From: Clostridiales bacterium
GTDB taxonomy: Bacteria > Bacillota > Proteinivoracia > UBA4975 > PWLI01
Reading direction: 5' to 3'
Length of the DNA stretch: 34,334 bases
NCBI GenBank assembly: GCA_003559415.1
Contig: PWLI01000008.1
Location: 1-34,334 of the forward strand
Under the pieces are notes generated by a model that was given only the letters and a program-made list of their open reading frames with translations, did no database searches and was not told the DNA's origin. A program made the translations under genes and the position numbers. Below, piece after piece: positions 7,388 through 34,273 of this stretch. Positions within the stretch are counted from its first letter, which is position 1, and each line of letters starts with the position of its first letter.

Positions 7388-8193
7388 TGGGAAAACATGT
7401 CGTAGTAGGTGTTCGCTTCAAAGAGGCCGGCAAAGTTTACTATTTTGACCCCAAGGGCCTGAATCTGTCGGTGGGGGATGCAGTTATAGTTGAAACTGTT
7501 CGTGGTGTGGAATACGGGCAGGTGGCAATCCCTGTAAAAGAGGTTGCCGAGTCGGAGCTGGTGCAGCCGCTTAAAAAGGTTGTTCGCATGGGCAACGAGG
7601 CAGATGCAGCTGCTGTCAAGGAAAACCAGCAAAAGGCGCTTCAGGCCCGCAAGACCTGTGAAGAAAAAATCGCCAAGCACAAACTGGAAATGAAACTGGT
7701 AGATGTGGAATATACCTTCGACAACTCAAAGATAATTTTTTATTTCACCGCTGACGGCCGGGTTGATTTCCGCAACCTGGTCAAGGACCTGGCAGGAGTG
7801 TTCCGCACCCGTATTGAGTTGCGGCAAATAGGGGTCCGGGACGAGGCTAAGATGCTGGGCGGGCTGGGAAGTTGCGGACGCCCCTTGTGTTGCGCGACTT
7901 TTTTGGATGACTTTCAGCCGGTCTCAATCAAGATGGCCAAAGAACAAAACCTTTCACTGAACCCCGCCAAAATATCCGGGGTGTGCGGGAGATTGATGTG
8001 TTGTTTGCGTTATGAGTCTGAACATTATCACTGCGCCAGAAAAGGCCTTCCCGAGCAGGGCAAGACTGTTTCAACAAGCCAGGGAAAGGCCAAGGTGGTA
8101 GACGTAAATATACTGAACCGAAAAATCAAGGTGCAACTTCAGCAAACGGGAACAATAGTGGAGCTTTCCCCAGAGGAGTTGCAACAGGAGTGA
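7387..8193 (+). CDS. ricT: PSP1-domain protein RicT/YaaT
   Basis: GVRFKEAGKVYYFDP; GLGSCGRPLCCATFL; KISGVCGRLMCCLRYE cysteine motifs; TAATG overlap with holB. Confidence 0.93.
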   Translation: MGKHVVVGVRFKEAGKVYYFDPKGLNLSVGDAVIVETVRGVEYGQVAIPVKEVAESELVQPLKKVVRMGNEADAAAVKENQQKALQARKTCEEKIAKHKLEMKLVDVEYTFDNSKIIFYFTADGRVDFRNLVKDLAGVFRTRIELRQIGVRDEAKMLGGLGSCGRPLCCATFLDDFQPVSIKMAKEQNLSLNPAKISGVCGRLMCCLRYESEHYHCARKGLPEQGKTVSTSQGKAKVVDVNILNRKIKVQLQQTGTIVELSPEELQQE

Positions 8194-8495
8194 GTCCCAT
8201 GGATGACCATATAAAGAAGCTGGAAGACAGCCTGGAAGAGTTTTATGTAACCCTCAAGCATTTGACGAAAGAATGTGTTTCCCTCCAAAATGAGCTGGAG
8301 AGGCTGCGGCGGGAAAACAAGTGGCTGCGGGAGCAGCTGCCGGCCAGAAAAGGTGAAGAAATTGTCGTCAAGGAAGGGCAAGATGCCTTGGCCAGGCTCT
8401 ACTATGAAGGATTTCATGTCTGCCACTTGCAGTACGGCAATCTGAGATCTGAAGGCGATTGCCTGTTCTGCATATCCCTGCTCAAGAAACAATAA
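8190..8495 (+). CDS. yabA: Replication initiation control protein YabA
   Basis: Coiled-coil N-terminus plus C-terminal FHVCHLQYGNLRSEGDCLFCISLL Zn motif; order holB-ricT-yabA. Confidence 0.88.
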   Translation: MSPMDDHIKKLEDSLEEFYVTLKHLTKECVSLQNELERLRRENKWLREQLPARKGEEIVVKEGQDALARLYYEGFHVCHLQYGNLRSEGDCLFCISLLKKQ

Positions 8496-9355: not shown

Positions 9356-9363
9356 GTCCTGTT
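9338..9363 (-). terminator. Terminator hairpin for abrB lying across both convergent gene ends
   Basis: Minus strand AACAGGAC-TTAG-GTCCTGTTTTTTTT; rsmI stop lies in the loop, abrB stop overlaps the stem. Confidence 0.75.
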
Positions 9364-9604
9364 AAGGCTGTACCAGTTCACCTGCACATTTGGGGCAAAT
9401 GTTTTTCCCCTTAAAATACGTAACCGCTTCTGCTTCACCACAAAAGATACAGGCCGGAGAGTACTTCTTGAGGATTATTTTCTCGCCATCTACATAAATT
9501 TCCAAGGCATCCCTTTCCTTGATATCCAGCGTGCGGCGGAGCTCGATGGGCAAAACAATCCTTCCCAACTCATCAACTTTGCGCACAATGCCAGTTGACT
9601 TCAA
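9362..9604 (-). CDS. abrB: AbrB-family transition-state regulator with C-terminal CxxC...CxxC motif
   Basis: MKSTGIVRKVDELGRIVLPIELRRTLDIKERDALEIYVDGEKIILKKY, then CIFCGEAEAVTYFKGKNICPKCAGEL. Confidence 0.93.
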   Translation of the reverse strand: MKSTGIVRKVDELGRIVLPIELRRTLDIKERDALEIYVDGEKIILKKYSPACIFCGEAEAVTYFKGKNICPKCAGELVQP

Positions 9605-9620
9605 AGCCGCCCCCTCCTTT

Positions 9621-9649
9621 TTGATTCATAGAAATTATACCAATATATT
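9621..9649 (+). promoter_or_regulatory. Candidate SigA promoter for the MetRS-like gene: TTGATT-N17-TATATT
   Basis: -35 9621-9626, -10 9644-9649, 17-bp spacer; interleaved with the abrB promoter. Confidence 0.55.
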
Positions 9650-9662
9650 CCATTACGGTCAA
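9634..9662 (-). promoter_or_regulatory. SigA promoter for abrB: TTGACC-N17-TATAAT (minus strand)
   Basis: -35 complement at 9657-9662, -10 complement at 9634-9639, 17-bp spacer. Confidence 0.8.
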
Positions 9663-9687
9663 TCAGCTGCCGGTCAGGAGGTCTACA

Positions 9688-11433
9688 ATGAAACAACATT
9701 TGTTTATGAACATTGTTTGTAAAACAAGCGAAGAATTGCCCCATATGGCAGTACTTGCAGACACTCTTCTGCGTCAGAGCGAAGGAGTGGGTCAAACTGG
9801 TTTCCAGGCGACCTGCTGGGGAGAAGAATCTTTATCTGAAGAGAAAACAAATGAGGCTTCAGCAGTTTTGAACCTCAGGCTTTCTCCGGCTGCTGTGGGT
9901 GAAGCGGGGCAGGTTTTTGCCCAGCTTGTTGACAAGCTGCAAAAACAAAAACTTGTTGACGCTGAGGATTGCCAGGGTTTTGTGTGTAAAAAATGTCAAG
10001 TCTTTGCTTGTGAAAAGTCGGCCCAGTGCCCTGTGTGCCAAGGTGCCATGGAAGAAGGCAGGGGTGTCCGCTGGACTGCGTCCTACCCCGGGTCGCTTGT
10101 GTTTGCCGAACTTCCCGGCGCAAACCTGCTTCCCTCTGACGTGTCTGTTGGCGCCAGCGGCAAAAAGAAGCTGGTACTGGGAAGCATGCTGTGGAATGAG
10201 CGAAAGGAAAAGTCCCTGCCTGCCCCCTGGCTCAAAGGCTTGCTCAACAGTTTGCGGTTGGCTGAATTTGGTGATGAAGGAAGATTCACAAAAAACTGGG
10301 AGGGCTCGTGGATATTTGCTTCCGCCGATTACTGGAATGATTACTTGGAGCCTTGGTGTTGGTTGCTGCAGCAAATGGATGTTGCTCTGCCTGGTGCCTT
10401 CGTTGCTTTCCAACCGCCGAATGTTGTTGACCGAAAAGAGCAGCCGGTTTCGCCGCTTTTGTTGGCCAAAAACTATGGCACAGACGCCATTCGCTATGCC
10501 CTGCTGAGTTTGAAGCCTGTTGCTGGCGAGAGTGTTCTCAATGAGGACAGCATAATACAGCGCATCAACCAAGATTTGGCCAACGAGCTGGGCAACCTTG
10601 TTTCCCGGACAATTTCCATGGTTGAGCGCTATTCCGATGGCCTCATTCCCCGGCCAGACGTGTTGACCCGCACAACGGCAGATTTGGAGTTGCGGGAAGT
10701 GGCACTGGTAACGCCTTCAACCGTCCGTCATCATGTTGTACTGCTGGAACCCCATATGGCTGTTGCCGCAGTGCGTCGGTTGATTGCTCAAACAAACCGG
10801 TTTATTGAAACAACCACTCCATGGCAGCTGGTTACAGGAGCGGCCAACCAGGAAAGGTTGCAGACAGTTCTTTATAGCCTGTGTGAGGCCCTAAGGTTTT
10901 TGGGCTCCGCGTTGGAACCGCTGTTGCCGGAAACGTCAGTAATTATCTATGAACAATTGGGACTGCCCCAGGGATGGAGTTCTGCCCGGGATGAGTACAG
11001 TGAAAAATGGGGAGGGTTGCGGCCAGGAACAAGGATTATGCCCATGCCGCCATTGTTTCCACGGATTGTTCCGGGCAAGTCTTCTCACGAAGAAGACATG
11101 GTGTTGCGGGATGAGCTCAAAAGGGTAAGGATGGTGGTGGCCAGGGTTGTTTCCGCCGAAGTTGTTCCCGGATCCCGGCGCATGGTGCAGTTGGTGCTCT
11201 ATGACGGCACTCAGCGCCGCCAGGTGTTGGCTCCCATCGGAGGGGCCTACCGGGCCTCTGACCTCACAGGGAAAAAGGTAATAATGTTGGCCAACCTGAG
11301 GCCGGTGACTCAGCAGGGCTTGGTAAACGAAGGGGAAGTTCTCTTGCTGGACACTGAAGACGGCATGCAAAAGCTGATAGAGGTTGAGTTAAGCGTTGCT
11401 GAAGGGAGCAGTATTCGTGCCATTTCTGATTGA
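9688..11433 (+). CDS. MetRS-like protein with degenerate catalytic domain (probable pseudo-synthetase): Zn knuckle, anticodon-binding and C-terminal Trbp111-like domains
   Basis: Retains CKKCQVFACEKSAQCPVC, YGTDAIRYALLSLKPVAGESVLNEDSIIQRINQDLANELGNLVSRTISMVERY and a C-terminal tRNA-binding module; HIGH and KMSKS motifs not recognisable; occupies the metS slot between abrB and tatD. Confidence 0.85.
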   Translation: MKQHLFMNIVCKTSEELPHMAVLADTLLRQSEGVGQTGFQATCWGEESLSEEKTNEASAVLNLRLSPAAVGEAGQVFAQLVDKLQKQKLVDAEDCQGFVCKKCQVFACEKSAQCPVCQGAMEEGRGVRWTASYPGSLVFAELPGANLLPSDVSVGASGKKKLVLGSMLWNERKEKSLPAPWLKGLLNSLRLAEFGDEGRFTKNWEGSWIFASADYWNDYLEPWCWLLQQMDVALPGAFVAFQPPNVVDRKEQPVSPLLLAKNYGTDAIRYALLSLKPVAGESVLNEDSIIQRINQDLANELGNLVSRTISMVERYSDGLIPRPDVLTRTTADLELREVALVTPSTVRHHVVLLEPHMAVAAVRRLIAQTNRFIETTTPWQLVTGAANQERLQTVLYSLCEALRFLGSALEPLLPETSVIIYEQLGLPQGWSSARDEYSEKWGGLRPGTRIMPMPPLFPRIVPGKSSHEEDMVLRDELKRVRMVVARVVSAEVVPGSRRMVQLVLYDGTQRRQVLAPIGGAYRASDLTGKKVIMLANLRPVTQQGLVNEGEVLLLDTEDGMQKLIEVELSVAEGSSIRAISD

Positions 11434-12190
11434 CACCCATGTTCACCTTGACCATCCCCGTCTGGCGGGCATATTTGGAGAAGTGTTGAAGCTGGCCAGA
11501 CAGAACAATGTATTGAAGATGATAAATATAGGTCACAATGTTGCGTCCAGCATTGCATCGACAGACTTGGCAGCCAGCAACGATGATATCTTTGCAACGG
11601 TGGGAGTCCATCCCCATTCCGCCAGGGAATGCCTGGAAAAGGGCTGGTTGGCAGATATCGAGAAGATGATCTCCCTGCCCAAGGTGGTTGCCATTGGCGA
11701 AATAGGCCTGGATTATTATTACGACAACTCTCCCCGGGAAGATCAAAAGCAGGTGTTCAGGCTGCAACTGGACATGGCGTGCCGGCATAAACTCCCAGTG
11801 GTAATACATCAAAGGGATGCAGCTTCCGACATGTTGGCAATTCTGCGGGAGTTTACACTGGAATACTCGGGGGTAATGCACTGCTTCTCAGGGTCGGTGG
11901 AAACGGCCCGGGAGTTTTTGTCCCACAATCTTCACATAGGCCTGGGCGGGCCGGTAACGTTCAAAAACGCCAAAAAACCCAAGGCGGTGGCAGCGGCAGT
12001 TCCGCTGGACAAATTGTTGGTGGAAACCGATGCACCATACATGGCGCCCCATCCCCATCGGGGCAAGACAAACCAGCCGGGATATGTGCGGCTGGTGGCA
12101 GAAGAAATAGCCAGAATACGCGGAATATCCCTGGATGAAGTCGCTGTTGCCACAACAAACAATGCCAACAAGCTGTTCCGTATAAGCTGA
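11417..12190 (+). CDS. tatD: TatD family hydrolase (YabD)
   Basis: FLIDTHVHLDHPRL; IGEIGLDYYYDNSPREDQKQVFRLQLDMA; ETDAPYMAPHPHRGKTNQP; GTG start 11417 preceded by GAAGGGA. Confidence 0.94.
   Translation: MPFLIDTHVHLDHPRLAGIFGEVLKLARQNNVLKMINIGHNVASSIASTDLAASNDDIFATVGVHPHSARECLEKGWLADIEKMISLPKVVAIGEIGLDYYYDNSPREDQKQVFRLQLDMACRHKLPVVIHQRDAASDMLAILREFTLEYSGVMHCFSGSVETAREFLSHNLHIGLGGPVTFKNAKKPKAVAAAVPLDKLLVETDAPYMAPHPHRGKTNQPGYVRLVAEEIARIRGISLDEVAVATTNNANKLFRIS

Positions 12191-34197: not shown

Positions 34198-34273
<76 letters not shown>

Follow-up and report, generated by a model that had tools for sequence, protein, structure and literature searches.

Methionyl-tRNA synthetases fall into two natural types, MetRS1 and MetRS2 (PMC8165550, PMC9071491), and non-catalytic relatives of other aminoacyl-tRNA synthetases have been described. 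In the animal mitochondrial seryl-tRNA synthetase heterodimer, SLIMP has lost its catalytic pocket and kept the tRNA-recognition part, with the active partner encoded elsewhere (PMC10570016). LeuRS-I of the Sulfolobaceae is a class I relative that persists lineage-wide beside the working enzyme, does not aminoacylate, and has an altered, acidic C-terminal domain; it still makes leucyl-adenylate and binds tRNA-Leu (PMC9437257). DALRD3, a vertebrate ArgRS-like anticodon-binding protein without a recognisable catalytic domain, directs METTL2 to tRNA-Arg for methylation (PMC7237682), so that a synthetase anticodon domain confers tRNA specificity and takes no part in catalysis. HisZ is a bacterial non-catalytic relative of class II HisRS that is under selection and regulates HisG, not via tRNA. 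MetRS is absent from the coverage of a 2022 review of synthetase duplicates (PMC9437257), and the MetRS-like proteins of biosynthetic clusters have been proposed to be catalytically active.

Here, we describe a metS gene that encodes a MetRS1-type protein without its catalytic residues. It lies in a window of 34,334 nucleotides, the whole stretch of DNA analysed, from a Clostridiales bacterium (GTDB lineage Bacteria; Bacillota; Proteinivoracia; UBA4975; PWLI01; assembly GCA_003559415.1, contig PWLI01000008.1). The sample comprised eight genomes of the order, of which those with named records are metagenome assemblies. Relative to MetRS1 (family C, with one zinc knuckle and a Trbp111-like C-terminus), the dead metS has the same locus, domain order, anticodon residues and knuckle, but has lost HIGH, KMSKS, the methionine and ATP pockets, CP length, the 3'-end pocket of the OB domain and the T-box leader. 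Judged by sequence, it shares with SLIMP, LeuRS-I, DALRD3 and HisZ the loss of aminoacylation and continued selection beside a working enzyme. SLIMP differs in being class II, eukaryotic and a true duplicate of its partner, whereas the MetRS2 found here is distantly related to the dead protein and was probably acquired; LeuRS-I retains adenylate formation, whereas the dead metS lacks both signature motifs; and DALRD3 is a vertebrate protein that lacks a recognisable catalytic domain and has a modification partner, no counterpart of which was found here. HisZ, which the preliminary description had offered as an analogue, holds as a retained non-catalytic synthetase relative but is a weaker comparison than the other three because it does not work through tRNA. 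Non-catalytic synthetase relatives are thus known, but the open literature searched yielded no report of a MetRS that is dead in this way. The best explanation of the whole, to which we assign a probability of about 0.6, is that metS was displaced by MetRS2 and has been retained as a non-catalytic protein that would bind CAU tRNAs by the anticodon only.

Loss of catalytic residues from metS

The preliminary description had reported an intact 581-aa ORF, and the frame indeed runs without interruption from an ATG start (9688-11433, plus strand), with a ribosome-binding site, AGGAGG, read directly six bases before the ATG (9676-9681, plus strand). The top NCBIfam model for the ORF is methionine--tRNA ligase, with a match confined to residues 181-576, the C-terminal two thirds. 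Its scores of 218 bits against NF008900 (cut-off 598) and 97.8 bits against TIGR00398 (cut-off 336) fall short of those of an active MetRS.

The dead metS has lost its catalytic residues. Seven full-length dead homologs, the window protein and those of six other genomes, were aligned with 14 active MetRS1 proteins of the same phylum. Residues 1-253 (9688-10446, plus strand) correspond in the alignment and the AF2 model to a remnant of the Rossmann catalytic domain with the CP knuckle and the KMSKS region; compared with active metS, this part is about 50 residues shorter and lacks both ATP motifs. HIGH is deleted in all seven dead proteins: at its former site (residues 14-20; 9727-9747, plus strand) the H, G and H columns are gaps, and in the window protein 'LPHMAVLAD' aligns after the missing HxGH. 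In the former KMSKS loop (residues 242-253, QPPNVVDRKEQP; 10411-10446, plus strand) the catalytic lysines are replaced, the KMSKS position reading NVVDR in the window protein and the second lysine being substituted in 7/7. The methionine pocket, which we take to consist in E. coli MetRS of Y15, D52, W253, Y260 and H301 (E. coli numbering), is likewise dismantled. The equivalents of D52 and Y260 are lost in every dead protein, those of Y15 and H301 are replaced in at least six of the seven, and that of W253 alone persists, in five. Since all seven full-length homologs lack the motifs through the same deletions, including the close relatives in which the preliminary description had allowed that the motifs might survive, sequencing error was rejected as the cause of their loss.

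Conservation is distributed unevenly over the remaining protein. Among positions invariant in the 14 active enzymes, those retained in all seven dead proteins number 12/116 in the catalytic part, 25/43 in the anticodon domain and 7/22 in the C-terminal part, and identity between the dead proteins is lowest in the catalytic part (39%, versus 62% in the anticodon domain). The stem-contact and anticodon-binding domain (residues 254-460; 10447-11067, plus strand) keeps the CAU-reading residues N303 (10594-10596), R307 (10606-10608) and W379 (10822-10824, all plus strand), which are identical in 7/7, as are the four cysteines of the zinc knuckle, C100-x2-C103...C114-x2-C117 (9985-10038, plus strand). 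The alignment therefore agrees with the preliminary description, which had listed HIGH and KMSKS as lost and the knuckle and anticodon-binding region as kept; its proposal of a full-length MetRS ancestor that has probably lost methionine activation is supported: the genome has a second, canonical MetRS, the ORF is under purifying selection, and close relatives lack the motifs too. Six derived residues (K276, R328, Q380, R474, R486 and E550), located in the anticodon domain and the OB domain, occur in every dead protein; such fixation is what one would expect if a new function arose once and was conserved thereafter.

An AF2 model whose alignment included rows of active MetRS reached pLDDT 81 and pTM 0.70, and bacterial MetRS structures head its PDB matches (TM 0.66 by query, 0.76 by target). 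A control model from the few dead-family rows alone gave pLDDT 41, with only the anticodon helices moderately confident; given this poor control, the overall fold is supported by homology and not independently by the model.

The C-terminal domain (residues 474-581; 11107-11430, plus strand) has the Trbp111/EMAPII-like OB fold, with PF01588 above its cut-off and Trbp111 (1PYB) as the best PDB match. A crystal structure of the Trbp111-tRNA complex shows the 3' CA end captured by this OB domain, with M85, F78, S82, K33 and R75 important, and Trbp111 OB domains are strong dimerisers (PMC11286949). When these positions were mapped onto the dead proteins through the Trbp111 alignment, the M85 equivalent proved to be Met in 14/14 active enzymes versus Glu in 7/7 dead proteins (E550 in the window copy). 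The F78 equivalent is Q, D, E or M, that of K33 is lost in six of the seven, and that of S82 is kept in four; R75 is uninformative because active metS does not conserve it either. The Trbp111-type pocket (K33, F78, S82, M85) is therefore absent as such, 3'-end capture has probably been lost, and a dimer-forming role is possible. The C-terminal module that the preliminary description had called Trbp111-like and tRNA-binding thus stands as a fold, but with its 3'-CA pocket destroyed it should not be labelled tRNA-binding from the fold alone. The net charge of the OB domain is -3 to -8 in six of the seven dead proteins and +1 in the window copy, and the anticodon domain has no overall positive charge; both observations count against the explanation preferred here.

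Descent and neighbourhood of the dead gene

The dead gene is orthologous to metS (MetRS1). It lies in the gene order rsmI-abrB-metS-tatD-yabE-rnmV-ksgA, the same as that around the active metS of the sister family, and it shows both the metS synteny and the single zinc knuckle of the MetRS1 lineage. A tree of the C-terminal part unites the dead proteins in a single clade (100/100), and their grouping with sister-family metS is compatible with the data (p-AU 0.41), though not positively shown. Taken with the identical synteny, this indicates that the dead gene is the original metS, functionally displaced, and not a recent duplicate.

A search for relatives with the same motif loss and location, as the preliminary description had proposed, showed that 8/8 genomes of the order have the gene, always in this position. 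The full frame, with the losses, is present in seven genomes spanning four genera, and the eighth copy (G007) is interrupted by an assembly run of N. Among 250 genomes of the phylum, the dead form was not found outside the order at a strict threshold, and a pattern scan of an 85,000-species collection, with 36 named loci, found it only in six genomes, which match those of this order; independent, unrelated losses would escape either scan. The other metS-type ORFs from the pattern scan mostly have an intact KMSKS.

Upstream, a gene for an AbrB-type regulator (9362-9604, minus strand) lies 83 bp from the start of the dead metS, and downstream tatD (11417-12190, plus strand) overlaps its end by 17 nt. 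Because the gap from abrB to the start is just 83 bp, the ancestral T-box leader of about 210 nt is gone, and no T-box or remnant was found before the dead metS. The interval at 9604-9688 holds a strong sigma-70-like promoter on the minus strand that faces abrB (11/12 matches) and overlaps a weaker promoter facing the dead metS. In one genome (G004, locus L051) abrB was not found between rsmI and the dead gene, and rsmI nearly abuts it. Six relatives have a tRNA1(Val)-type methyltransferase gene ahead of rsmI; in the window, the yabA-rsmI interval (8190-8495) lacks it. Such a TrmN6-like methyltransferase was considered as a partner and rejected as a conserved one, since it occurs in G001-G003 and G005-G007 but is absent from the window. 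No order-specific partner gene was found.

A second synthetase and its T-box

Besides the dead metS, all eight genomes of the order encode the working enzyme, a MetRS2 with the motifs HLGH and KLSTSR. The preliminary description had suggested a search for a second canonical MetRS, and the window genome carries one (locus L001), so that the dead protein is not its only MetRS. Copies from the order are 69-78% identical to that of the window genome; those of G003 and G004 are interrupted by an assembly gap and a contig end, respectively. The order's MetRS2 ends at about 550 aa, without a Trbp111 domain. Its lineage is patchy, with matches at E <= 1e-100 in 9/250 genomes of the phylum, four of them from this order; a fifth genome of the order in that scan has a partial copy that scores below this threshold. 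This spread fits horizontal acquisition, and the enzyme may have entered the order by transfer. Five other genomes with MetRS2 homologs (frames of 542-590 aa) also hold an active metS. The proposition that acquiring MetRS2 always kills metS was rejected, as HIGH and KMSKS are kept in the metS of all five.

The active metS of the sister family, which lies in the gene order given above, has a T-box leader with an AUG specifier 50-62 nt upstream (5/5 genomes). In the order, a T-box instead precedes MetRS2 at seven loci, and the specifier, readable in six, is AUG in each. The Met-specific T-box (L001:866-1076; L054:7499-7708) thus appears to have switched genes, from active metS in the sister family to MetRS2 in the order. 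A species of the sister family (G011) combines MetRS2 with a metS that looks active, plausibly an intermediate state. The history can be read from active metS with its T-box, through both enzymes intact in that species, to MetRS2 with the T-box beside a dead metS.

The presence of both proteins in 8/8 genomes, together with the missing OB domain of MetRS2, invites the explanation that the dead protein is an obligate non-catalytic subunit of MetRS2, dimerising with it and helping to recruit tRNA in the manner of SLIMP with SerRS2alpha or Arc1p with yeast MetRS. Ablation of the active site in one SerRS subunit is a precedent (PMC10570016), and the strong dimerisation of Trbp111 OB domains (PMC11286949) would suit such a role. 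We nevertheless regard it as unlikely. The five other genomes pair an active metS with MetRS2 homologs of comparable length, which argues that this MetRS2 needs no dead partner, and the destroyed 3'-CA pocket and the CAU anticodon shared by both proteins speak against an Arc1p-like hand-over.

A third MetRS-like protein of 637 aa is encoded in G003 (L072:325-2238, minus strand), alone within the order. It has HFGH, reads KKASSSS in place of KMSKS, scores low against MetRS models and is possibly a biosynthetic MetRS-like protein.

Selection and the role of the retained protein

The dead metS is under ordinary purifying selection like its neighbours. Its dN/dS, taken from the two genome pairs whose dS is unsaturated (0.64 and about 1.09), is 0.113 and 0.096, and that of rsmI, tatD and ksgA is 0.09-0.14. 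By parts, and against an active reference that is one sister-family pair only, the other active pairs being saturated, dN/dS is 0.155 and 0.155 versus 0.014 in the catalytic part, 0.076 and 0.055 versus 0.064 in the anticodon part, and 0.094 and 0.073 versus 0.050 in the OB part. Constraint on the catalytic part has thus fallen about elevenfold, and that on the anticodon domain has hardly changed. The preliminary description had supposed that selection to bind tRNA was retained and had named dN/dS across relatives as a check; the values agree with retained selection, are not those of a pseudogene, and point to the anticodon end only.

These values also bear on a further alternative, in which the protein has no role in tRNA biology: on the precedent of HisZ and HisG (PMC9437257), its MetRS fold would have been turned into a regulatory or scaffolding subunit, and the anticodon domain would be a conserved protein surface. 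The lost OB tRNA pocket would suit it, as would the residues newly fixed in that domain and in the anticodon domain. Against it, all seven proteins keep N303, R307 and W379 although most other positions invariant in MetRS have changed, and the anticodon domain has the same dN/dS as in the active enzyme; we consider this explanation improbable. The domain could have been kept for reasons of fold or dimerisation, though the invariance of exactly these three residues argues against it. A cryptic or altered enzyme, with a remodelled Rossmann domain that still activates an amino acid or catalyses something new, is very improbable. The catalytic part is still selected and its zinc knuckle invariant, but residues 1-253 hold no invariant polar cluster beyond D25, R29, D196 and the cysteines, about 50 residues and both ATP motifs are missing, and this is the least conserved part of the protein. 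A decaying pseudogene or assembly artefact, suggested by the faster evolution of the catalytic part and by the metagenomic origin of the named genomes, is scarcely credible, because the ORF is intact in seven genomes of four genera with the eighth cut by an assembly gap, the ribosome-binding site is good, the deletions are common to all members, and dN/dS is about 0.1 as in rsmI, tatD and ksgA, neither a value near 1 nor frame damage being seen.

Displacement of metS followed by retention for CAU-tRNA binding, our preferred reading, would have begun when an ancestor of the order gained a second MetRS, of the MetRS2 type and with a Met-specific T-box, which took over tRNA charging. The original metS would have stayed in its operon, lost the T-box leader, and shed HIGH, KMSKS, the pockets for methionine and ATP and, in the OB domain, the one for the tRNA 3' end; the non-catalytic protein would then have been retained under ordinary purifying selection. 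We propose, as the most economical mechanism, that it uses its intact anticodon domain to grip tRNAs with a CAU anticodon (tRNA-Met of the initiator and/or elongator kind), with the acceptor end left free. It may act as an adaptor, in the way that DALRD3 does for tRNA-Arg methylation, as a holder or as a sensor, keeping these tRNAs for a partner or presenting them to it. The collapsed catalytic domain, the zinc knuckle and the OB domain may serve as protein-contact surfaces. Such a role is favoured over an Arc1p-like hand-over because MetRS2 would compete for the same CAU anticodon.

The CAU tRNAs found are the usual set, with one initiator, one elongator and one Ile2-like tRNA, assigned by eye; an orphan tRNA for the dead protein was therefore rejected. 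The window carries the initiator tRNA-fMet(CAU) at 34198-34273, with a C1-A72 mismatch and a GGG/CCC anticodon stem, and a second partial tRNA follows directly at the contig end.

We tentatively suggest that the order possesses a dedicated CAU-anticodon-binding protein, derived from a displaced MetRS and undescribed in bacteria, that presents or reserves initiator or elongator tRNA-Met for a partner; on the same tentative reading, the processes served by such a handling factor could be modification, formylation, initiation control or starvation sensing. The reading predicts CAU-specific tRNA binding that is independent of the 3' end. Evolution has here separated the anticodon-reading from the charging job of a central translation enzyme, and if the reading is true, tRNA-Met, initiator or elongator, would be subject to a further layer of regulation in these bacteria.
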